Shown here piece by piece: positions 48,559-62,574 of a stretch of 64,000 nt of DNA. The stretch lies in the NCBI GenBank assembly GCA_004321715.1, contig SGYN01000002.1, forward strand, positions 1 to 64,000, in the 5' to 3' direction. The stretch comes from a bacterium (GTDB lineage: Bacteria; Fidelibacterota; Marinisomatia; Marinisomatales; TCS55). Both the position numbers and the translations under genes were made by a program. Numbering within the stretch: the stretch's first letter is position 1; the number at the start of each line of letters is the position of its first letter. The notes beneath the pieces were generated by a model. That model made no database searches, was not told the origin of the DNA, and saw only the letters and a program-made list of their open reading frames with translations.

Positions 48559-50265
48559 CTAATCTTTTACTTCATCTATTTGTTCAGGATCTAAGAAGCC
48601 TTCAGCATATTTTAGATAAATCTTTTCCTTAACAAAAACATCAAACAATTCCGCATCAATATGAGCATCATTTTTCATAAAGCCCAATATTCTCATTGCT
48701 TGACTTAAAGTTTTACCTTTTTTATAAGGTCTATCTCTAGCTGTTAAAGCTTCAAAAATATCAGCAATTGCCATAATTTTTGCTTGGACAGACATTTCTC
48801 CATGATTTAACCCTTTTGGATAGCCAGTACCATCAAGCTTTTCATGGTGTCCTCCAGCAAATTCAGGCACATTTCTTAAATGTTTAGGATAAGGAAGTTG
48901 TTCAAGCATTTCAATGGTAACTACAATATGATCATTTATAACTTTTCTTTCTTCAGGAGTTAATGTCCCTCTACTTATACAAAGATTATATACTTCATTA
49001 TCACTTAAAAATGATTTTATGCTTCCATTATTTTTATAACGATATGACGAAATTTTCTTCACTCTATCTTTTCTATCCTGGGACATAAATTCTCCACCAA
49101 AATTGGACTCTTCAATAAAGGTCTTATCTTCATCAAATTGTTTAATCTTTTTCAAATAAATAATTCTCGCTTTTTTTACAGCTTCTTTTTTATCTATTTC
49201 AGATAAAGTATCTTTTTTATGAATAGATAATTGTTTTTTTAAAAATTTTATTTCTTCATCTCTTTTTAAAACTTCAAAACGAGTTGCTACCATATGAATT
49301 CTATCATAGATGGTTTCCAATTTAGTACTCTTATCCACAACATATTCCGGAGTGGCTACTTTTCCACAATCATGCAGCCAAGCTGCAATTTTTAATTCAT
49401 ACATTTCTTTATCTGAAAAATTAATATTAGAAAATGGTCCATGATCCATACCATTTACTGATTCAGCTAGCATCATGGTTATTTCTGGTACACGAGAACA
49501 GTGCCCTCCTGTGTAGGGTGATTTTGCATCAATCGCTGAGGCAATTAGTTTAATAAATGATTCAAATAATATCTCAAGATCTTTAATTAGATTTTGATTT
49601 GTAATTGCCACTGCAGCTTGACTTGATAGAGCCTCTACATTTTTTTGTATTCTTTCAGAGAAGGTGATTACTTTATTTGATTTTATATCTTGAGCATTTA
49701 ACAACTGAAGAACGCCAATTATTTCATTTTCATGGTTTTTTAGTGGAACTGTTAAAAAAGACTTCGATCTATAACCAGTTTTTTCATCAAAAGCTTTTGT
49801 GCCAGAAAAATCAAACCCTTTTGCTTTATAAGCATCAGGAATATTGATGGTTTTACCATTAATTGCTGCATTCGCAGCAATCATGTTTTCATTAGGCTTA
49901 CCATTATCATATAATTTAACAGGATAAAATGGTATATCTTTTCCAGATGTTCCACCCATATGGACATCAAGTGAGTCAGTAATCATAATAGAAAATCTTA
50001 GTCGCTGATCATCAGTCATCATGTAGAGTGTGCCTCCATCAGCATTTGAGATTCTTTTAGCTTCAAGTAAAATCATCTCTAATAATTTTTCCATATCTCT
50101 TTCTTTCGAAAGAGCCAATCCTATATCAGACATATTTGATATTTGGCTCTGCAAACTATCAATATATCTTCGGACATTTGAAGGTATTGAATCAAGCATT
50201 TCATTAATTTCAGCTTGAGAGAACAATACCTGCTTTCTTTTATCTATTCCATTATTACTTGACAT
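48559..50265 (-). CDS. GAF-HD-GYP domain protein (putative cyclic-di-GMP phosphodiesterase)
   Basis: GAF: LLEMILLEAKRISNADGGTLYMMT; HD: AAWLHDCGKVATPEYVVDK; GYP: GGHHEKLDGTGYPKGL. Confidence 0.9.
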   Translation of the reverse strand: MSSNNGIDKRKQVLFSQAEINEMLDSIPSNVRRYIDSLQSQISNMSDIGLALSKERDMEKLLEMILLEAKRISNADGGTLYMMTDDQRLRFSIMITDSLDVHMGGTSGKDIPFYPVKLYDNGKPNENMIAANAAINGKTINIPDAYKAKGFDFSGTKAFDEKTGYRSKSFLTVPLKNHENEIIGVLQLLNAQDIKSNKVITFSERIQKNVEALSSQAAVAITNQNLIKDLEILFESFIKLIASAIDAKSPYTGGHCSRVPEITMMLAESVNGMDHGPFSNINFSDKEMYELKIAAWLHDCGKVATPEYVVDKSTKLETIYDRIHMVATRFEVLKRDEEIKFLKKQLSIHKKDTLSEIDKKEAVKKARIIYLKKIKQFDEDKTFIEESNFGGEFMSQDRKDRVKKISSYRYKNNGSIKSFLSDNEVYNLCISRGTLTPEERKVINDHIVVTIEMLEQLPYPKHLRNVPEFAGGHHEKLDGTGYPKGLNHGEMSVQAKIMAIADIFEALTARDRPYKKGKTLSQAMRILGFMKNDAHIDAELFDVFVKEKIYLKYAEGFLDPEQIDEVKD

Positions 50266-50426: not shown

Positions 50427-53400
50427 ATGAATATAAAATTATATTATCCTTTATTCCTTTGTTTTTCTCTATTAATTGCTGGAGATACTGGTAAAATAGT
50501 TGGAAAAGTTACTGACTCTGAAACTGGTGAAGCATTATCTGGTGTTAATATTTTACTTCAAGGAACAGCTATGGGTGGAGCTTCCGATGCCAATGGCAAA
50601 TATATTATTTTAAATGTTCCTGCTGCATCATATACAATAACTGCATCATACATTGGTTATAAAATAATTAACGTCACAGATACTAGAGTGAATGCAGATT
50701 ATACTACCATTATTAATTTTGAAATGGAAGTCTCTGCGGTTGAAGGAGAAGAAGTAATAGTTGAAGCAAAAAGACCTCCCATTGTAAGAGATCAAACTGC
50801 TACCACAACTACAGTTGAAGATGAAGATATAATTAATATGCCTGTAAACTCTTTCGATGAAATTATGACAACTATGGCAGGTGTTGTTGAAAACAACAAT
50901 GCAAACGGCGGCATTCACTTACGCGGTGGTCGTACAGGAGAAATATCATATTTAGTAGATGGCTTTCTTATTGAAAATGCTCTATTTGGTGGAATGAGCA
51001 TGGATATAGCAAAAGATGCTATATCAGAATTATCTTTAATAACGGGTGCTTTCAATGCAGAATATGGTAAAGCAATGAGTGGTATTGTCAACATTGTTAC
51101 CAAGGAAGGAACACCAAAATATCATGCTGGCATAACTGCCGCTACAGATGGATTTGGTGGTAAAAAAAATAATTGGGGAACAAGTAGGAACATAATCAAT
51201 ATTAGCGGCCCACTCATTCCTGGAATGGGTAAAATTGCAAATTTTAATTTTACTGCTGATATTAACCAATCAAAAGGTAATCTATGGAAAAATCAACTCC
51301 CACGCGATGTTCTAACAGTCGATATAGATGGTGATGGTATATATGATGATGGAGAAGATACATATGCAATGGCAGATATAACTGCAAATGGTATAGAAGA
51401 CACTGTAGAATTAAAAAAAGGCGCATGGGAACAATCTGGTACTTTTAATAATTACCAACGAGTTACAGGAAAATTAGTTATAAAACCCATCAAAAATGCA
51501 AAGATTACTTTAGGATCAAATTATTACGAATCGGAAGGAAAAGGTTTCAGCATGGATTATAGGCAGCTACCCGATCGCTATTCCACATCATTTGGAACAA
51601 CTGCACAGACTAATTTTAAACTAAACTATGCAATTAGTGATAAAATGTCCTTAACAGTAAAAGCACAAAACTATTCTCGTGATCGACATAATGGTTATAA
51701 ACCACTATTAAATAAAAAGCATCAACTTTGGGGTGAAGAAATAGAAATACCATCTGATTGGGAAAACTATATTCCAGGAACTGTAGTTGCTGGAAATAAT
51801 ATGAATTGGTTTAGTTACTATGCTGAACCTTATGCTGATTGGAATGGAGATGGGCAGTATAGTCCATTTGGCGCAGCTGAATATTGGAAAGATAGTAACG
51901 GTAATGGAATATGGGATGATGGTGAATACTACAATGATTGGAATGGCGATGGAAGTTGGACAATATTAATGGATGCAGATGGTGATGGTATACCCGATGC
52001 TGAACCATACATTGATATCGATAGTGATGGATCATATAGTGTAGGTGTAGATCCTAGACTTAGAGAAGGTGATGCTTATAATGGAACATCAAACTATGAA
52101 TTTTATGGAAGCTATCCTGTAGTTAATTTTTTTGGCGATACAATTCGAGATGGGCATTCCACTTATCATGATTATCAATGGTATGGAACCAGCTATAATG
52201 AATATGGAGCAGAGCTCACTTGGCAAGTGAATGAAGTGCATCAAATTAAGACTGGTTTTGATAATAAAAAGCATAAAATAGCAAATTTTTCTGGTTCAGC
52301 AATTGGCGGAGGTCCCTTTGGAAACACTTCAGATGCAAGCTGGGTTATGTATGAGTTTGAGCCTAGAGAAGCATCCTTTTACATTCAAGATAAAATGGAG
52401 TACAAAGAATTTATAATTAATGTTGGATTACGTTATGATGCGCTTGATCCAAACTCAAAATATCCTGATCCAAGCAGGAAATTATTATATGAATATAATG
52501 GTCAAGCATATACACCATCTGATCTAAGTCAATTAACTGAACAGCAAATGCAACAGGCTGATTGGGGTTATGCTGTTCTTGATGATGAAGGAATTCCTGC
52601 AACTGATAGTGATGGAAATTATATTTTTGAACCAGCTAAATTTGCTAGTTATAAGGAAAAATGGAGTCCAAGAATTGGATTTGGCTATCCAATTACAGAT
52701 AACATAGCATTTCATGCTAGTTATGGACACTTTTTTGATTATCCAAACTTGAGTAGTGCATACGCTTATACAAATTCAAATGGAGCTAATGGTCTAGCGC
52801 CAGGGCTGACGGGGATTAATGTTGATAACTTCAATTTTGGTAATTCATATTCGCCTTTTCCAGTAAATACTGCAGATTTTTATATTCCTGCAATTGGGAG
52901 TCCAAATGTTCGCCCTGAAAGGACTGTTCAATATGAATTTGGTTTTAGGTCATTTATTGCTGAAACGTATATTATGAGTATGACAGTATATTATAAGGAT
53001 ATATATGACCTTATATCTGCAACTATTTATGATGCAGACCCAGCACAATATTCATTATATGAAAATCATGACTATGCAAATGTTAGAGGATTTGAACTAG
53101 AAGTAAGAAAAAATTTCAGTAATAATCTAGCTTGGTACGCAAACTATACTTTATCTAAAGCAGAAGGTAGCGCTCCAAATGATAATTTCCATTGGGATGT
53201 CGCATATCTTGCCTCAGTATATGGATGGAGAGACTATAATAGAACATTTAATATGTCATGGGATCAAACTCATGTAATTAATTATGGCGTTGATTACCAA
53301 CATCCAAAAGGATTTGGATTAAATCTAATTGGAAATTTTGGGAGCGGCCTACCTTATACTCCAACAGATGCTAGAGGAAGACCCATTGATGATCCCTACT

Positions 53401-53651
53401 CTGCAAGAATGCCTAGTACTTCTATTGTAAATATGAGAGCATATTATGATTTATCGCTTAAATCTGCCAACTTAAGAATTTATGCAGATATTGATAATTT
53501 ACTTGATAGATCAAATATTTATAATGTATTTACTGATACCGGGACGCCATCAGAATCAACGAATCCAAATACATCTCCAATGTGGATGCATCGACCATAC
53601 TATTGGCAAGCTCCAAGGCATATTGAAATTGGCATTACAGTGAGGCTCTAA
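50427..53651 (+). CDS. TonB-dependent receptor with Ca2+-binding-like repeats
   Basis: GKIVGKVTDSETGEALSGVNILLQGTAMGGASDANGKY, plug GGRTGEISYLVDGF, AEYGKAMSGIVNIVTKEG; barrel ending IEIGITVRL. Confidence 0.9.
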   Translation: MNIKLYYPLFLCFSLLIAGDTGKIVGKVTDSETGEALSGVNILLQGTAMGGASDANGKYIILNVPAASYTITASYIGYKIINVTDTRVNADYTTIINFEMEVSAVEGEEVIVEAKRPPIVRDQTATTTTVEDEDIINMPVNSFDEIMTTMAGVVENNNANGGIHLRGGRTGEISYLVDGFLIENALFGGMSMDIAKDAISELSLITGAFNAEYGKAMSGIVNIVTKEGTPKYHAGITAATDGFGGKKNNWGTSRNIINISGPLIPGMGKIANFNFTADINQSKGNLWKNQLPRDVLTVDIDGDGIYDDGEDTYAMADITANGIEDTVELKKGAWEQSGTFNNYQRVTGKLVIKPIKNAKITLGSNYYESEGKGFSMDYRQLPDRYSTSFGTTAQTNFKLNYAISDKMSLTVKAQNYSRDRHNGYKPLLNKKHQLWGEEIEIPSDWENYIPGTVVAGNNMNWFSYYAEPYADWNGDGQYSPFGAAEYWKDSNGNGIWDDGEYYNDWNGDGSWTILMDADGDGIPDAEPYIDIDSDGSYSVGVDPRLREGDAYNGTSNYEFYGSYPVVNFFGDTIRDGHSTYHDYQWYGTSYNEYGAELTWQVNEVHQIKTGFDNKKHKIANFSGSAIGGGPFGNTSDASWVMYEFEPREASFYIQDKMEYKEFIINVGLRYDALDPNSKYPDPSRKLLYEYNGQAYTPSDLSQLTEQQMQQADWGYAVLDDEGIPATDSDGNYIFEPAKFASYKEKWSPRIGFGYPITDNIAFHASYGHFFDYPNLSSAYAYTNSNGANGLAPGLTGINVDNFNFGNSYSPFPVNTADFYIPAIGSPNVRPERTVQYEFGFRSFIAETYIMSMTVYYKDIYDLISATIYDADPAQYSLYENHDYANVRGFELEVRKNFSNNLAWYANYTLSKAEGSAPNDNFHWDVAYLASVYGWRDYNRTFNMSWDQTHVINYGVDYQHPKGFGLNLIGNFGSGLPYTPTDARGRPIDDPYSARMPSTSIVNMRAYYDLSLKSANLRIYADIDNLLDRSNIYNVFTDTGTPSESTNPNTSPMWMHRPYYWQAPRHIEIGITVRL

Positions 53652-53653
53652 TT

Positions 53654-56600
53654 ATGAAGAAATATAAAATATTAGTTTTTACCTCTTTTTTATTATTCAG
53701 TAGTGTTTTTGCTGAGGAAATACCAAATATTTCTAAAAGAGATTATTACGATTATTACGTTGCTCCCGCTAAAGGAAGAATTCCAGATAGATTGAATAGA
53801 TCTATGGGATATGCAGATCGTAAGTTATCTGTATTAGATAAGGGAAATTTAGTTTTACGTATGTCTAATGCTGCTATTTATGGATATGATAGATGGGGAC
53901 TAAATCATGAATTTCCTGCAGGAAGTATGGCAAAAACAGGTTGTTGTACATATTATTGGACACAATCTCCCATGGTTGGTGCATTAATTAATGGAGTGCC
54001 TTCTGTAGCTGTGGGCGTGCGTGGAAGCGTTCGGGATCATGAAGAAGAATTCGAGCCATTACCAGGATATGATGCTGGTTATTCCGATACAGACAATAAT
54101 GTAGGGATAGCTTTTAGTGATGTTCCAGAATCATGGCCTGTCCTTTGGCCAAGAGAGACAGATCCAACTGGTACTTTTGAATCAGTAATTTTTAATGCTG
54201 ATGGGTCTTCGGATACATTATATTTCCCAGGTATTGAACCCGAACTTGGTCCAGATGGATTTCCTGATGCGCCATGTGGAATAGGTGTTCAGGCTGAACG
54301 TGAAGCATATTTTGTAGTTACTGATAATGATCCCCAAGAAGGCAATACATTTGAAAGTAATCAAGGTGTCGGTCCATTAAATGTTCGTTTTGATGTTTGG
54401 GTTCTAAACTATTCCAGTACGTTTGGAAATGATGGTTTCATTTTTATACAAAAAATGACAAATGTTGGTAAGGATACATTGAAAGATCTCTATATGGGAA
54501 TCGCTGGAGACCCAGATGCTCCTGAGCAAGGCGGAGCTGAATGGACAGATGATATGGCACTTTTTATTACAGAAGATGACCCTCTTATTGCAGAAAAATT
54601 AGCCGATACATCAGATGCTCATCTTTTGGAAAACTTTGCTATTGTTTATGATAGTGATGATGCAGTGCAGGGCTATCTTACATCAGGTGTGGGATGGATT
54701 GGTGCTAAGTTTCTTGATTTAACAAAATATAATAGCGATGGAAGTGACACAACCTATGGTGTAACAAATTTTTATACCTTTGAATATAGTGAAGATGCGC
54801 AAAGTGATGCACAAGCATATAATGAGCAAATGACTGGAGGAATTCAAACACCTCAAAATATCACACCTTTCGTAGGTGATGTTTTCCAAAAACCATATAG
54901 TTATGGACCTGATATTACCTGGGTAATTGCAGGAGGACCAATGGATGTTGCTCCTGGAGAGCAAGTAATTTTTACATTTGCGGATTTTGCAGGAATCAAT
55001 GAAACTGATTTAATTCGAAATGCAAAGTTATTTCAATCGCTTTATAATAATAATTGCGCTACTCCAAAACCACCTGATCAACCAATTGTAAATACTGCAG
55101 TTGATGATGGGAGAGTTGTACTTATGTGGGATGATCGTAGTGAATATTCTATAGATCCCGTCACAGGTAACAATGCATTTCAAGGATATCGAGTGTATCG
55201 TAGCACAGATAGAGGAAATACTTGGGGAACAGTTATTACAGATGTGAATGGTGACCCAACAGACTTCTATAAACCATTAGCAATATATGACTACGATGAT
55301 AATCAAAGTGGACCACATGTTATGACGGATCCTCTTATTTATTATAATCTAGGTTCTAATTCTGGGGTTAAATATTCATATGTTGATAATAATATTATTA
55401 GTGGCTATGAATACTGGTACGCTGTTTCAGCTTATGATGGTGTTGATGATTGGGCTGGTGCTCCCGTAGACCCCATGGAAAATTCTAAGGCAAAAAATGC
55501 CTTCTATAGCGATAATGACAATACTGTTGCTGTTGTAGCTCAAAAGAAATCCGCAGGATACATAAAAGGCTCTGTACCAGATATGGCAGTACATTCTTCT
55601 GGTGATTCAGATGCCATCTTACATTTAATCCCAGCCAATGCATTTTCACTAGAATTTCAAGGTGATTCTTTATCACCAGATGATTTTAATAGTAAAGGTT
55701 ATAGCTATAATATTATAATTGATGAGCAAACAATTGGTGATACGGTAACTATTAATTCTTGGAGTATGATAAATACTTCTACTGGTGATACAGTTGTTTC
55801 AAATGAAACAGATGTAGAATCAGGGCAGTTAAAGCACGTTGTTGATGGATTTATACCTATGTTTACAACTGCCTCATGGAGTTTATCTAGCTATGACTCA
55901 GTAAAACAGACAGTTAACCAGGATACTTCGACTTCCATATTATTCAGTGGAATCAATCCAAGCTCAAATGATGGAACATGGGCTGGTTTTGTAGAAAATA
56001 CACCGCTTGATCCAAAGCCATCTGGAAGACCAGGCGCTCACTTACTTCAAAAAGATATTGAACTTCGATTCACTTCTGGCGGATCAGTAGCAACATACTT
56101 TAATGCACAAGTTACAACTATAGAAACTGTTGATATCCCATTTGAAGTTTGGTCCTCAGAAGACAATAAACAGATTGATGCAGTTATCTATATGGCAGCA
56201 GGATCAAAACCAATATTTGAAGAAGATCCAGAAAATTCTGGGCATTACATGTTTACAAAGAATTTCTATATCATGCCTTTATATCGAGATTATAGCGGTA
56301 CGGGATTAACAGATTGGTATAGTGATACCAATATTGGCTGGATGTTACAATTCAATAAAAACGATTCTCGTTTTGCAGAAGGTGATGAATTCAAAGTATA
56401 TTTTCGTAATCCTTTATTAGCTGGAAGAGATTCTTATACAATTGAAACAACTGCAGATAATTATTTGGTTAGTAAAGGTGACCTCGATGAAATAGTCGTT
56501 GTTCCAAATCCATATAATGCTACATCTGCATATGAGCACATAGCATTTATTAGAGAAGTACAATTTATTGGCCTTCCTGAAAATTGTTTGATAAGAATTT

Positions 56601-56788
56601 TCAATACGGCTGGTGAATTAGTTCAGGTAATTAAACATGATGTGAATAGTCCTGGGTATAGGGGTCCTAGCATTGAAGCATGGGACTTACGAACCTATAA
56701 TAACCAGGAAGTATCTTTTGGGGTTTATGTATTTCATGTGGTCTCAAATGATCAAGAGTTCACTGGTAAACTTGCGGTGATAAAATGA
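53654..56788 (+). CDS. Large exported protein with Fn3-like segment and FlgD/T9SS-like C-terminal domain
   Basis: Signal peptide; Fn3-like VVLMWDDRSEYSIDPVTGNNAFQGYRVYRSTDRGNTWG; C-terminal VVPNPYNATSAYEHI...VSFGVYVFHVVSNDQEFTGKLAVIK. Confidence 0.75.
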   Translation: MKKYKILVFTSFLLFSSVFAEEIPNISKRDYYDYYVAPAKGRIPDRLNRSMGYADRKLSVLDKGNLVLRMSNAAIYGYDRWGLNHEFPAGSMAKTGCCTYYWTQSPMVGALINGVPSVAVGVRGSVRDHEEEFEPLPGYDAGYSDTDNNVGIAFSDVPESWPVLWPRETDPTGTFESVIFNADGSSDTLYFPGIEPELGPDGFPDAPCGIGVQAEREAYFVVTDNDPQEGNTFESNQGVGPLNVRFDVWVLNYSSTFGNDGFIFIQKMTNVGKDTLKDLYMGIAGDPDAPEQGGAEWTDDMALFITEDDPLIAEKLADTSDAHLLENFAIVYDSDDAVQGYLTSGVGWIGAKFLDLTKYNSDGSDTTYGVTNFYTFEYSEDAQSDAQAYNEQMTGGIQTPQNITPFVGDVFQKPYSYGPDITWVIAGGPMDVAPGEQVIFTFADFAGINETDLIRNAKLFQSLYNNNCATPKPPDQPIVNTAVDDGRVVLMWDDRSEYSIDPVTGNNAFQGYRVYRSTDRGNTWGTVITDVNGDPTDFYKPLAIYDYDDNQSGPHVMTDPLIYYNLGSNSGVKYSYVDNNIISGYEYWYAVSAYDGVDDWAGAPVDPMENSKAKNAFYSDNDNTVAVVAQKKSAGYIKGSVPDMAVHSSGDSDAILHLIPANAFSLEFQGDSLSPDDFNSKGYSYNIIIDEQTIGDTVTINSWSMINTSTGDTVVSNETDVESGQLKHVVDGFIPMFTTASWSLSSYDSVKQTVNQDTSTSILFSGINPSSNDGTWAGFVENTPLDPKPSGRPGAHLLQKDIELRFTSGGSVATYFNAQVTTIETVDIPFEVWSSEDNKQIDAVIYMAAGSKPIFEEDPENSGHYMFTKNFYIMPLYRDYSGTGLTDWYSDTNIGWMLQFNKNDSRFAEGDEFKVYFRNPLLAGRDSYTIETTADNYLVSKGDLDEIVVVPNPYNATSAYEHIAFIREVQFIGLPENCLIRIFNTAGELVQVIKHDVNSPGYRGPSIEAWDLRTYNNQEVSFGVYVFHVVSNDQEFTGKLAVIK

Positions 56789-57882
56789 AGAAAAATATGA
56801 TCATAACTTTTATTACTATACAATGTTGTATTTTTGCACAATTTGATAATACTGGCACATCTGCGGCCAACTTTCTAAAAATAGGAATAGGCAGTAGAGG
56901 AATGGCCCTTGGTGGAGCTTTTACAGCAAATGTACAGGATCCATCTGCCCTTCATTGGAATCCTGCTGGTATAGCTCATGCTAATGATATACAGGTTTTG
57001 CTTTCACAGTACAATTGGATTGCCGATATGAAGCACAGTTATTTTGGAATAGTTTTCCCTATTGGATTGTTAGGTAATTTGGGAATCAGCCTTAATAATC
57101 TTGATATGGGTGAAATGAAAAAAACAACAGAATTTGACCAAGATAGTAAAGTCGTTTTTCGCGCATCTGACATTGCTCTAGGCATTGGACTTGGTAAAAA
57201 AATATCTGATCGATTTTCAATCGGTTTACATGGTAAAATTGTAAGAGAAACAATTTCTTTTTCCAATGCTACCGCTTTTGGATTAGATGTTGGATCCCAA
57301 TATCAAACAGGTTTTTCTGGATTATCTATAGGAATGGCTATAACAAACTTTGGTACAAAAATGAAATTGGGAGGTACAGATCTTAAAGTAGATACAGACC
57401 CCTATGAAGATCAGAATGCAAACCCTGATGTTATCGCACAACTTCAAACAGATGAGTGGCCCTTACCTATGTCCTTTCGGTTTGGTGTAGCTTTTACTCC
57501 TATTGGCCCCACATCTTTCATTAAAAATGAGGCTATTGAGGCCTCCGTAAGCATAGATTATTATGATCCACGAGATTACAATCCATATTATGCTGGAGGT
57601 TTAGAAATTAAGGTTCTTGAAGGGTTATATCTGCGGATGGGGTTGGAAAATAAATTTATTCAGTTTGATGATTCACATGATGAAAGTATGGATTCTAATG
57701 ATTTGAAAGATGAACTCAACAAAGATAATGCTTATGGATACCAAAATAAAACTGCTTTTGGATTTGGTTTATCATCAACTATGTTTCCATTTATACCCTA
57801 TAATTTTACACTTGATTATTCCGTTTCTGATATGGGAGCATTGGGGCAGGTTACTCGATTAACATTTACAATCGGACTATAA
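56785..57882 (+). CDS. PorV/UPF0164-like outer-membrane beta-barrel protein
   Basis: GTSAANFLKIGIGSRGMALGGAFTANVQDPSALHWNPAGIAHANDIQVLLSQYNW. Confidence 0.85.
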   Translation: MKKNMIITFITIQCCIFAQFDNTGTSAANFLKIGIGSRGMALGGAFTANVQDPSALHWNPAGIAHANDIQVLLSQYNWIADMKHSYFGIVFPIGLLGNLGISLNNLDMGEMKKTTEFDQDSKVVFRASDIALGIGLGKKISDRFSIGLHGKIVRETISFSNATAFGLDVGSQYQTGFSGLSIGMAITNFGTKMKLGGTDLKVDTDPYEDQNANPDVIAQLQTDEWPLPMSFRFGVAFTPIGPTSFIKNEAIEASVSIDYYDPRDYNPYYAGGLEIKVLEGLYLRMGLENKFIQFDDSHDESMDSNDLKDELNKDNAYGYQNKTAFGFGLSSTMFPFIPYNFTLDYSVSDMGALGQVTRLTFTIGL

Positions 57883-57895
57883 TAAATATCTTGTA

Positions 57896-57930
57896 AAAAA
57901 AAGCCTTCTTAGAGAAGGCTTTTTTTTTGA
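57896..57930 (+). terminator. Rho-independent terminator
   Basis: AAGCCTTCT (57901-57909), loop TAG, AGAAGGCTT (57913-57921), preceded by A-run and followed by T-run. Confidence 0.95.
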
Positions 57931-57957: not shown

Positions 57958-60900
57958 ATGAATCAAACATTACCAGCATATTTAAGCTATATTAAAAAAG
58001 TATTTGGTCACCAACCAAATGCTGATGAGCTATTGGCAAAAGCATCAGAATTATTTGAATCAAATGCAAATCAAAAATCAATCCATGATTTTTTAGAATT
58101 GGGGCATCTTCCCATAATAAATAGTGAAATATGTAATTCAAATAAAGTGAATGAATGGTTTAAGATAATTCATAAACTAATAATTAAATCAAGACTAACT
58201 GTAGGTCATCTGATAAATCAGAGGGCACGATATTACGATGGAAAAGAATGCTTTAAAGTAATTAACGGGAAGACTACTGAAAGTTTTTCTTATAAAGAAA
58301 TATGGCATAGAATAATACAGATTGGTCAAGCCTTAGCAAATATAGAAATAAAATATAATAATGATATTGTTGTCGGAATATTTACCGAAAACTCACTTCG
58401 AGGTGCCTTAATTGATCTTGCCTGTTTATCATTTCATTTTCCAATTGTTCCAATACCAGTTACAACCACCGCAGAACATTTAAAGTTCATCATAAATAAT
58501 TCTGAGATCACACACCTATTTATTGGAGGTGTTTCAGTTCAAGGAATTTTTCGTGATTCTAAAATTGATTCGAATACATTAGTTATTTATCATTTGGATA
58601 ATCATTCTGATGCAATCATTGATTTTAATCAATGGGAAAATTTTATATCTCAATCTGTTGAATATGATGAAATCAATGTTTTAAAAAGAATAAATGACTG
58701 TGATATAAAAGACATATCTACTGTTATGTATACCTCTGGTACAACAGATAATCCAAAAGGTATCGTTTTCTCGCAGGAAAACATTATATCAAAAAGGTTT
58801 GCAAGAGCTTTAGCTCTTCCCTCTTTTTCAAGTGATGATGTTTTTTTATGTTTTCTTCCCTTATATCATACATTTGGAAGATACTTTGAATTATTAGGAT
58901 CTATTTTTTGGGGTGCAACCTATACTTTTGCAGAATCACCATATTTTAAATCTTTATTAAAAGACTTTCATATATCAAAACCATCAATTTTTATTAGCGT
59001 ACCAAAGAGATGGATTCAATTAATGGAACATGCTAATTCAATTAATTCAACAGATGATGATAGTACTCAATTAAAGAATCGAATTTCTTCTATAACTGGT
59101 GGAAACCTTAAATTTGGATTATCAGCTGCTGGTTATTTAGATCCAGATGTGTTTCATTATTTTCAAGATAATAGTATTAATCTAATTAGTGGATATGGCA
59201 TGACAGAGGCAACTGGTGGTATTACAATGACACCCCCAAATGATTATCAACCTGATTCTGTTGGTATACCGTTACCAGGTATTGATATAAAATTAGCCGA
59301 AGATGGTGAACTACTTATTAAAGGAGCATATGTATCATCCTTCTATTTTAGTAAAACAAATAACTCTACTCTAGTTAATGGATGGTTTCATACTGGTGAT
59401 ATATTTAAAGAAAAGAATGGTCATTTATATATTATCGATCGTAAAAAAGAAATTTATAAGAATACTAGAGGACAAACAATCTCACCTCAGAAAATAGAAA
59501 ATATGTTTCAAGATTTTGATGGAATTAGTTGTGCTTTTTTAGTTGGGGATGGTTTGGAATTTAATACTTTACTTATTTATCCTGACCATGATACACTGCC
59601 AATTGAATTCTCAAATGATAATATTTCATCTATTCGAGAATATTATAGTTCATTAGTTCAATCTGTGAATAGTTTTCTTTCTCCGTATGAACGAGTGATC
59701 AATTTTGCAATAATAAAGCGCTCATTTATTGAGGATGATGAATTAACACAAAAAGGCACATTTAAGAGAAAAGTAATAATAAAAAACTTCGATACAGTTA
59801 TATCTCCCATGTATCAAAAGAATTATGTCGCTTTATCATATAATAAATTTCAAATTTATATACCTAATTGGCTCCTCAGAGAAAAAGGTATAAGTAAAAA
59901 TGATATTCATTGGGATGGTTCTTTTCTATCAGTAAGAAAAAAAGAAGAGAAGATAAAAATTGAATGGACAGATGATAGCTTAATTATTGGAGATTTTACT
60001 TATAATTCGATTGATAATATTATTGATTTACATACTATATTAATTTGTCCACATCTATGGCTTGGAAATAATAGTTTTACAGATTTTATAGGAAAAAGTG
60101 TATTTAGAATTTCCCGGTTTGAGCATTCAAATTCTATTAAACTACAATTTCCATTATTTAATAATAACACAACCAAATCTGCAAAAAGTTTAGATGAATA
60201 TGAAAGTATGGTTGATCTATATGGACTTCATAAATCAACAGAGCAATTATATAATGGAGATCTTAATGGTCTTATAGCATATAGTAGCTTATTGCGATCT
60301 AATAGAGAAGAACTAAAAAAGATTGCATTTGATATTCTTTTATCATTTCGACAACATAAAAACTTTTCCGTTAGACTACGAGTAATGGAAACGATACTAC
60401 CTAAACTATCTGGAGAATTATTTTATGAATTATTTTATGATACATTTAAAAAATATAATAATGAAAAATTAAAGAATCAATTTTCAATAAATGTTGACTT
60501 ATTAAATAATGAACATTTTAAAACTATCTTATCCCAGTTGGGTCAATTTAGAAATGATATTAAATCGGTTGATAAGGTTCAATTTTCGTTTATTCAAATT
60601 TTATTACCGATTATAACTGATTATGGTATTAAGCATCCCACAAAATACCTTTGGGCACGATCAGAATTATATTGGTGGCAAATAGTAGAATGCCCAAAAA
60701 GGACATTATCATTAGCTCAAAAAGAACACTACAAACTAATAAATGGTTTTAGATCGTGGGTTGGTCCAAATAGAAAATTAGCAATAAATAGAAATGACCA
60801 TTCTGAATATAATTGGAAGGATGTTATTACATTCGATGAGCTTATTGAGCCTACTTTACAAGAAACTTTACTTAATGCTATAATAAATACAGCATTAATT

Positions 60901-62574
60901 AAAGAGACCATCTTTCTTTTTTACAACCATCGATTAATAGAATTGAATGATATAAATCCTGAAGGAGTTTGGATAACCTTATTAGGCAAAAATCAAGGGA
61001 AAATAGTATTAAGAATACTAGTTCAAACAAAAAATGATGATTCCTATAATTTTACAATAAATCTTAATGAAACTCATAAAAAAGAATTTATAGAAGAAGA
61101 AATTAAATGGTTGATAATTATGGGTACATCAATCCATGGTCAGAAGTTTGTTGAAGAGTTTGGAGGCTATTGGCCAGAATACAATCTTTATACAGAAGAA
61201 TATATTCCAGGTGAAACATTATCACAATATCTTGAAAGAAACAGAGATGAAATTCAAGAAAACTCTGCTCCAGATCGATGGCAGATGCGTTGGCTTCACT
61301 TTATTTGGAGCGGGACTGCAGCATATATCAATTTTTGGTGGCGTTCAGATAGAAAAGTGCAGATTGGAAATCCTTCTCCAAAGAATCTAATCATTCCTGA
61401 ACATGATTATTCGTCAGGAACTAGACTAATTTCCATAACAGATAGAGAAGAAACATCGGAAGTTTCCAATCTTTTGTTCAGCATATATAAAAATTTTATA
61501 GATGATACTGAAAATAAATATATTGGTTTAAAACGAATGGCAGATTGGGAATTAATATTCTCAGTCATTATGCAAGAAACAAAAGTGCAATATGGCATTC
61601 CATTAATTAAACAATTCAAGTATGAGATAAATAATAATACAGACAAAAAAAGTATGGCTAAAAAGTATGGGCTTACAAATGATAGAATAGACCATTTTCT
61701 TACTGAAGTTGAAAATGAAGGGGTTTTAACAAAGAGGATGGTTTTTGCAGCTTTAAGATATGAAAGATGGCTTGAACTAAATCAAAATGCTACACTAAAA
61801 GCAAGAACAACTATCTTACAAGAATTATATCAAGATTATAAACTTGGAGAACTATTAACAGAATATCCCGAAACTAGAGTCCGCTTTTTTTTGATGACTT
61901 GTTTAAAAGATTCAAATGAAAATCTAAAGAAATTATTGGGTGATCTAATTAAAGAATTACGATCTCAAAAAGTTACGGAAGATGATCTTCAAAATAGACT
62001 ACATCATATACATGAAAATATTGAAGTAACAGATGACGAAAAATTTTTCCTTACACATCTAGTTTTTAAGCATTTAGCAGCTGCAGACTACATAGAGTTA
62101 GTAACAATGAATGAAGGAGATAATAGTCGTATTGATCTTGTAATGCTTTGCGAGGATAAAGATGGTAATGGTTATAGAATAAGACCCCCATTTCACCCTA
62201 AAGAAATTGCACGTTTCCATTCAATACTTATTAAATCAAATCTTGAACCTATTTTTCAGGGTGATCATGAGTTTCTATTAATTTTCGATATGAAAGATAG
62301 ACTTGTTGGTGGAGTGTATTGGAAACAATCTATAAAAGATACAATTGCACATTTTGAATGGATTGTAATTAGATCAAAGTACAGAAAAAAAGATTTGAGC
62401 AACCGTTTAATGAATGAATTATTTAGCCGTTTAAGAAATAAAGGAATTCAATATGTTATAGCTGGGTTTTTTCAAGAAGATTTTTTCTATAAATATGGTT
62501 TTAAAATTGATCGCAATTTTGGAGGATTAGTAAAAAATATAATAGATGTTAAAAAGGTGGATTTACCAGTATAA
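57958..62574 (+). CDS. 1538-aa multidomain protein: AMP-dependent acyl synthetase, uncharacterised helical/HEAT-like and kinase-fold-like central region, C-terminal GNAT-like domain
   Basis: VMYTSGTTDNPKGIVFS, LISGYGMTEATGGITM, WFHTGDIFKEKNGHLYIIDRKKEIYKNTRGQTISPQKIENMF, QKGTFKRKVIIKNF; C-terminal GNAT-like LLIFDMKDRLVGGVYWKQ...HFEWIVIRSKYRKKDLSNRLMNELFSRLRNKGIQYVIAGF. Confidence 0.8.
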   Translation: MNQTLPAYLSYIKKVFGHQPNADELLAKASELFESNANQKSIHDFLELGHLPIINSEICNSNKVNEWFKIIHKLIIKSRLTVGHLINQRARYYDGKECFKVINGKTTESFSYKEIWHRIIQIGQALANIEIKYNNDIVVGIFTENSLRGALIDLACLSFHFPIVPIPVTTTAEHLKFIINNSEITHLFIGGVSVQGIFRDSKIDSNTLVIYHLDNHSDAIIDFNQWENFISQSVEYDEINVLKRINDCDIKDISTVMYTSGTTDNPKGIVFSQENIISKRFARALALPSFSSDDVFLCFLPLYHTFGRYFELLGSIFWGATYTFAESPYFKSLLKDFHISKPSIFISVPKRWIQLMEHANSINSTDDDSTQLKNRISSITGGNLKFGLSAAGYLDPDVFHYFQDNSINLISGYGMTEATGGITMTPPNDYQPDSVGIPLPGIDIKLAEDGELLIKGAYVSSFYFSKTNNSTLVNGWFHTGDIFKEKNGHLYIIDRKKEIYKNTRGQTISPQKIENMFQDFDGISCAFLVGDGLEFNTLLIYPDHDTLPIEFSNDNISSIREYYSSLVQSVNSFLSPYERVINFAIIKRSFIEDDELTQKGTFKRKVIIKNFDTVISPMYQKNYVALSYNKFQIYIPNWLLREKGISKNDIHWDGSFLSVRKKEEKIKIEWTDDSLIIGDFTYNSIDNIIDLHTILICPHLWLGNNSFTDFIGKSVFRISRFEHSNSIKLQFPLFNNNTTKSAKSLDEYESMVDLYGLHKSTEQLYNGDLNGLIAYSSLLRSNREELKKIAFDILLSFRQHKNFSVRLRVMETILPKLSGELFYELFYDTFKKYNNEKLKNQFSINVDLLNNEHFKTILSQLGQFRNDIKSVDKVQFSFIQILLPIITDYGIKHPTKYLWARSELYWWQIVECPKRTLSLAQKEHYKLINGFRSWVGPNRKLAINRNDHSEYNWKDVITFDELIEPTLQETLLNAIINTALIKETIFLFYNHRLIELNDINPEGVWITLLGKNQGKIVLRILVQTKNDDSYNFTINLNETHKKEFIEEEIKWLIIMGTSIHGQKFVEEFGGYWPEYNLYTEEYIPGETLSQYLERNRDEIQENSAPDRWQMRWLHFIWSGTAAYINFWWRSDRKVQIGNPSPKNLIIPEHDYSSGTRLISITDREETSEVSNLLFSIYKNFIDDTENKYIGLKRMADWELIFSVIMQETKVQYGIPLIKQFKYEINNNTDKKSMAKKYGLTNDRIDHFLTEVENEGVLTKRMVFAALRYERWLELNQNATLKARTTILQELYQDYKLGELLTEYPETRVRFFLMTCLKDSNENLKKLLGDLIKELRSQKVTEDDLQNRLHHIHENIEVTDDEKFFLTHLVFKHLAAADYIELVTMNEGDNSRIDLVMLCEDKDGNGYRIRPPFHPKEIARFHSILIKSNLEPIFQGDHEFLLIFDMKDRLVGGVYWKQSIKDTIAHFEWIVIRSKYRKKDLSNRLMNELFSRLRNKGIQYVIAGFFQEDFFYKYGFKIDRNFGGLVKNIIDVKKVDLPV

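Follow-up and report, generated by a model that had tools for sequence, protein, structure and literature searches.

Closest described systems

Bacterial lysine acetyltransferases (KATs) have been sorted into types I-V, in which an NDP-forming synthetase domain is joined to a GNAT domain in either order, a ligand-binding domain is joined to a GNAT domain, a GNAT domain occurs alone, or multiple GNAT domains occur together (PMC6456759, PMC8556138). These enzymes provide a precedent for combining an acyl-CoA-synthetase-type domain with a GNAT domain, and AMP-forming ligases are themselves substrates of the Pat GNATs (PMC4053389). Here, a 1538-aa protein is described that is encoded at 57958-62574 of a 64,000-nucleotide stretch from a bacterium of the order Marinisomatales (GCA_004321715.1, contig SGYN01000002.1, positions 1 to 64,000; hereafter the window). 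The protein fuses an AMP-forming ligase, a HEAT/ARM-like repeat block, a predicted pseudokinase and a GCN5-like GNAT domain, and we tentatively favor its interpretation as a single-chain, Pat-like N-acyltransferase that is fed by its own fused ligase.

The type I and type II KATs (Pat/PatZ/YfiQ; class I-alpha) resemble the fusion protein in having a large synthetase-type domain and one GNAT domain, which is C-terminal in type I, and the fusion GNAT matches a lysine acetyltransferase by fold. However, the Pat enzymes carry an inactive NDP-forming domain, whereas the synthetase domain of the fusion protein is of the AMP-forming PF00501 type, with no NDP-forming domain among its Pfam matches, and HEAT/ARM, pseudokinase and helical domains are placed between its two ends. 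Mycobacterium tuberculosis Pat (Rv0998; type III, cAMP-GNAT) similarly has a ligand-binding domain N-terminal to its GNAT and was recovered as a structural match (4ava/4avb); the fusion protein differs in lacking a cAMP-binding domain, in being far larger and in having other regulatory modules. None of the published KAT types I-V combines an AMP-forming ligase with a pseudokinase, and no description of a ligase-pseudokinase-GNAT architecture was found in the open-licence literature that was searched.

The fusion is a real protein under purifying selection

An earlier note on this DNA, made from the letters alone, had described a single open reading frame (ORF) running from a ligase to a GNAT domain, and this description is borne out by full-length, single-ORF homologs.
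57958..62574, + strand: fusion ORF of 1538 aa, with an ATG start and no internal stop
57958..58197, + strand: N-terminal extension, residues 1-80, weakly conserved in the alignment (mean pairwise identity 26%)

Pfam matches in the ORF are limited to AMP-binding (residues 90-464), AMP-binding_C_3 (504-621) and Acetyltransf_10 (1411-1516); residues 622-1400 gave nothing above threshold in Pfam. When the C-terminal 904 aa were searched against the window's own genome (1.63 Mb, 67% complete) and 60 relatives, 36 of the 61 genomes matched, mostly with full-length ORFs of 1490-1550 aa. Of 245 genomes in the phylum, 95 were matched at E<=0.001 by a profile built from 42 sequences; a few of the matches were weak and confined to the GNAT stretch, and the others included a distant clade of the same phylum (families f30/f31, search labels) with ORFs of 1543-1629 aa and 24-28% identity across the C-terminal part. 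In an exact-peptide scan of 84,980 genomes, which is too strict for the distant clade, nearly all matching public records bore the name Candidatus Marinimicrobia/Neomarinimicrobiota.

Because full-length single-ORF homologs recur in many independent assemblies, the fusion is not a product of chance or misassembly; an assembly artifact, which the earlier note had named as fatal to its reading, is ruled out by these ORFs, and the single copy that appears split (L008, genome G004) is interrupted by N bases at its junction. These data demonstrate that the 1538-aa fusion is a real protein, kept as one polypeptide across the order and the distant clade. A mobile, phage or plasmid origin was rejected, as searches of plasmids, phages and viral contigs yielded nothing related to the C-terminal part, and a defense system was rejected, as there was no PADLOC match.

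When the window was compared with its nearest relatives (L006, L005), the ratio of nonsynonymous to synonymous substitution (dN/dS) was 0.11-0.12 for the ligase, 0.28-0.37 for the beta domain, which is the least constrained, 0.14-0.15 for the HEAT block, 0.06-0.07 for the pseudokinase, 0.04-0.07 for the helical block and 0.02-0.06 for the GNAT, the lowest among the domains. Purifying selection therefore acts on every domain of the fusion protein. At 52%, the mean family identity of the ligase exceeds that of any other domain, and pairwise distances of the C-terminal domains correlate with those of the ligase at 0.83-0.96 (GNAT, 0.94); distances that track those of the ligase are the pattern expected of one evolving unit.

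The ligase part retains ANL motifs and has a displaced A10 lysine

Residue states here and below were counted in 63 homologs.
58225..59349, + strand: AMP-binding (ANL) N-domain, residues 90-464, acyl-CoA-synthetase-like (Pfam PF00501, E 2.9e-54)
58729..58761, + strand: A3 motif YTSGTTDNPKG, essentially invariant
59467..59820, + strand: ANL C-domain (AMP-binding_C_3), residues 504-621 (Pfam PF23562, 5.1e-8)
59752..59760, + strand: invariant lysine K599 and T601, the latter in the canonical A10 lysine column of the alignment

The best NCBIfam models for the ligase part are fatty-acid CoA ligases. The A3 motif (YTSGTT..PKG; checked at Y, T, S, G, T, P and K, with one T varying between T and S), A5 (GYGMT) and A8 (DRKK and the following G) are near-invariant, and with both AMP-binding domains present the N-terminal part is an ANL protein by fold and motifs, as judged from its sequence. 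The A10 lysine touches the alpha-phosphate during adenylation and has been described as highly conserved among acyl-CoA ligases (PMC8388817). In the fusion family, the A10 region reads LTxKxT(F/Y)xR; the canonical lysine column is Thr or Ser in 63/63 homologs, and the invariant K599 lies two residues upstream. Long-chain acyl-CoA synthetases (FadD/ACSL) share the two Pfam domains and motifs A3, A5 and A8; the fusion protein differs from them in having LTxKxTxxR in place of LTPTxKxxR and about 917 extra residues. Two ACSL-like paralogs in the same genome (26-27% identity to the fusion ligase over about 570-610 aligned residues) and several plasmid ACSLs have LTPTxK(L/I/V)(K/R)R, with the canonical lysine present.

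The earlier note had called the ligase apparently intact, including its catalytic-lysine region. The region and the motifs are there; however, "intact" is too strong, because the canonical A10 column is Thr or Ser throughout and K599 is displaced. Ligase activity by way of K599 is plausible from the motif pattern.

The GNAT domain is GCN5-like and constrained

62092..62541, + strand: GCN5-like GNAT, residues ~1379-1528 (Pfam, phmmer, profile and Foldseek)
62356..62358, + strand: E1467, candidate general base on predicted strand beta-4, acidic (E/D) in 63/63
62383..62400, + strand: motif A P-loop RKKDLS (alignment across clades)

Acetyltransf_10 was detected in the window GNAT at E 2.2e-7 and in 47 of 49 family members, and the domain matched Tetrahymena GCN5 by phmmer (1.3e-5) and GCN5 by profile (7.3e-9). 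Compared with the GCN5 histone acetyltransferase, which it resembles in detectable sequence similarity and in fold, the fusion GNAT differs in a P-loop that is degenerate in the window's lineage and in having its acid at 1467. The earlier note had remarked on RKKDLS as a non-canonical motif A, standing where R/Q-x-x-G-x-G/A would be expected. The motif is present in the window, but across the alignment it is a lineage-specific trait: the loop is RGRGLS, SGRGIS or RGGGVS in the distant clade, and RGKGLS or QGGGLG in some members of the order.

Position 1467 holds Glu in all 45 order members and Asp or Glu in all 18 distant members; Y1511 is a candidate general acid, with Tyr at this position in 46/63 homologs. 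Strict equivalence of E1467 to the GCN5 base is not claimed, since pairwise alignment places H1465 opposite the general-base glutamate of GCN5. A catalytically competent GNAT would be the economical reading of these sequence features.

The middle region contains a predicted pseudokinase

The earlier note had recognized a beta-rich linker, a HEAT-like segment, a degenerate kinase fold and a helical region ahead of the GNAT, and profiles, AlphaFold and Foldseek all bear this series out.
59821..60147, + strand: beta-rich domain, residues ~622-730 (AlphaFold secondary structure)
60217..60762, + strand: HEAT/ARM-like helical repeat block, residues ~754-935 (AlphaFold; profile matches to armadillo and designed helical repeat chains)
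60934..61527, + strand: kinase-like fold (pseudokinase), residues ~993-1190 (AlphaFold, Foldseek)
61060..61062, + strand: N1035 at the VAIK-lysine position, N in 59/63 (position from predicted secondary structure)
61363..61386, + strand: IGNPSPKN in place of HRDLKPEN, the catalytic-loop equivalent, after alpha-E (predicted structure and alignment)
61438..61440, + strand: T1161 at the DFG-Asp equivalent, S/T/F/A/L and never D in the family
61546..62064, + strand: conserved all-helical block, residues ~1197-1369 (AlphaFold)

An AlphaFold2 model of residues 622-1538, made with 49 homologs, had a mean predicted local distance difference test score (pLDDT) of 86.9 and a predicted template modeling score (pTM) of 0.73. 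Its Foldseek matches in the PDB were of two kinds, protein kinases, with Vps34 and Bud32 among them, and GNATs (GCN5 and M. tuberculosis Pat Rv0998), both at E 3-10e-4 and a probability of about 1.0, so that the structural comparison proposed in the earlier note recovered a kinase-like and a GNAT fold. When residues 972-1372 were modeled in isolation (pLDDT 90.6, pTM 0.88), the top 50 PDB matches were all kinases or the kinase-like phosphotransferase PsiK (best E 1.4e-5, probability 1.0; 552 matches at E<=0.001). The match is to the general fold, because the target TM score was only 0.27-0.47 among these 50, and the tightest alignments, at 4-5 A across about 170-180 columns, take in only part of the fold. 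The whole 622-1400 core was rejected as one known enzyme, given that no Pfam, NCBIfam or PDB sequence match extended over it beyond the ARM-like helices; the earlier note would have been overturned by such an assignment.

The predicted kinase order is beta-1 to beta-3, alpha-C, beta-4/5, a hinge (YTEEYIPGETL), alpha-D and a long alpha-E. Protein kinases and pseudokinases share the beta-1 to beta-5, alpha-C, hinge and alpha-E topology; the fusion protein differs from them in a C-lobe that is helical and divergent beyond alpha-E and in the loss of catalytic residues. With motif positions inferred from the order of predicted secondary structure, the VAIK position is N/H/Y/S across the family, mostly N and never Lys, and the HRD-Asp position is N, P, D, V or another residue, with no consistent Asp. 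Thus the N-lobe, hinge and alpha-E topology of a kinase is found together with the absence of the VAIK Lys and DFG Asp and of a consistent HRD Asp, and we read residues ~993-1190, as modeled, as a conserved pseudokinase.

Proposed mechanism and alternative explanations

In the interpretation that we tentatively favor, the ligase would bind ATP together with a carboxylic acid (probably an acyl chain) to make acyl-AMP or acyl-CoA; the GNAT would pass the acyl group of acyl-CoA to an amine, for which a protein lysine is the likeliest candidate; and the HEAT/ARM block and pseudokinase would form a scaffold that brings in the acceptor or relays ligand state between the two ends. This is preferred over the alternatives below because of the near-invariant A3, A5 and A8 motifs, K599, the constrained GCN5-like GNAT, the acidic residue at 1467, the RGxG P-loop in the distant clade and the ligase-GNAT co-divergence of 0.94. 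The earlier note had likewise proposed acyl activation and transfer to an amine or a protein; this appears plausible, but the canonical A10 lysine on which activation would ordinarily depend is absent in all members. The best reading is that the acyl donor would be made, or sensed, by the fused ligase. A more specific version, in which acyl-CoA or acyl-AMP is passed to the GNAT of the same chain, the pseudokinase/HEAT scaffold picks the acceptor, and free acid and ATP are thereby coupled to protein acylation, which would make it a new class of self-feeding protein acyltransferase, is unlikely in its entirety. Several points weigh against the Pat-like interpretation: the Thr/Ser in the A10 column, the degenerate P-loop in the window's own lineage, the inactive NDP-forming rather than AMP-forming domain of the cited Pat proteins, a sequence that does not separate a protein from a small-molecule acceptor, and neighboring genes of which none points to an acyl acceptor, a carrier protein or, in the course of a survey not aimed at it, a deacylase.

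The loss of the canonical A10 lysine while the nucleotide-binding motifs are kept also fits a purely sensory ligase domain attached to a GNAT, as in the Pat of E. coli and Salmonella, in which an inactive synthetase domain accompanies a GNAT (PMC8556138); the presence of a second dead enzyme, the pseudokinase, in the same chain points the same way. However, the invariant K599 could substitute for a lysine only two residues away, the other ligase motifs are near-identical, and a family identity of 52% is higher than expected of a mere sensor, so that a sensor is considered a rather unlikely, but serious, alternative. Small amines are common acyl acceptors of GNATs, and the ligase could make acyl-CoA from which the GNAT moves the acyl group to an amino acid, a polyamine or a lipid head group, yielding an N-acyl metabolite. 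This is consistent with fatty-acid CoA ligases being the best ligase models, and a possible analogous pairing exists in an Alteromonas plasmid operon, where an AMP-binding ligase gene overlaps a thermostable-hemolysin gene. Nevertheless, the fusion gene has no consistent operon link to a biosynthetic gene cluster or an exporter, protein lysine acetyltransferases are among the nearest relatives of the GNAT by sequence and by fold, and a long helical scaffold with a pseudokinase would be unusual for such an enzyme; a small-molecule product is judged unlikely. Finally, the A10 lysine of AMP-forming ligases is acetylated by Pat-family GNATs, which blocks adenylation (PMC4053389, PMC8388817), and with GNAT and ligase fused here and K599 invariant, the GNAT might mainly target K599 of its own chain, so that the protein would be an acyl-CoA synthetase carrying its own Pat-type off switch. 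K599 is displaced two residues from the known target lysine, however, and the large middle region is left unexplained, which makes this improbable.

The Alteromonas pair lies on Alteromonas macleodii plasmid pBGP9 (L141, 2265-4512), with redox and SDR genes downstream of the hemolysin/ligase overlap; the thermostable hemolysin protein is presumably GNAT-like, and the two may be a separate ligase and GNAT-like pair.

If the Pat-like interpretation is right, a major uncultured marine phylum has its own acyltransferase architecture outside KAT types I-V, acid activation is coupled to amine acylation in one chain, and a pseudokinase without catalytic residues is conserved across two deep clades. 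A testable function would thereby be given to a large protein that is kept in small genomes and has no known family over most of its length, and the protein offers a test of ANL ligase function with a displaced A10 lysine and of a bacterial pseudokinase that recruits acyltransferase substrates.

Genomic context

48559..50265, - strand: GAF-HD-GYP gene, 568 aa, beyond the cassette in the window and the divergent neighbor of the fusion gene in most relatives
50427..57882, + strand: outer-membrane cassette of three genes (1074, 1044 and 365 aa, the last PorV-like), ~7.5 kb, between the fusion gene and its usual neighbor
57895..57927, + strand: intrinsic terminator of the upstream outer-membrane-protein cassette (stem -16.7 kcal/mol, z -4.4)

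The strong upstream terminator reported in the earlier note was confirmed. The gene was also said to be isolated and monocistronic, and no operon partner was seen in either clade, the neighbors being divergent or convergent; however, this isolation is a derived state. Most relatives within the order have the fusion gene head-to-head with the GAF-HD-GYP gene, with a DUF420/SCO1/UbiA/CtaA heme-copper oxidase assembly cluster in convergent orientation to it, whereas the outer-membrane cassette adjoins the fusion gene instead in the window's genus and in L071, from another genus. The isolation of the window gene is thus secondary, resulting from the cassette that separates it from GAF-HD-GYP. The congeners of L071 are without the cassette at the fusion gene.

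The head-to-head arrangement makes a shared regulatory region possible. GAF-HD-GYP was rejected as an obligate partner, because it occurs in 49/61 genomes and the fusion in 36/61, with several genomes carrying one without the other, either way. The GAF-HD-GYP protein contains an HHEKLDGTGYP motif and has about 60-75% identity across most of the order.

In the distant clade, the neighbors are glutamate dehydrogenase, citrate synthase and a single-domain response regulator. Close to the fusion gene, beyond the glutamate dehydrogenase gene, L122-L133 share a conserved same-orientation run that encodes a 748-aa PPDK_N-domain protein, a 164-aa protein and a 607-aa protein without any Pfam match. 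Within the window's cassette, the 1074-aa protein resembles, by eye, a carboxypeptidase-regulatory/TonB-like receptor, and the 1044-aa protein, likewise by eye, is C-terminal-sorting-like.

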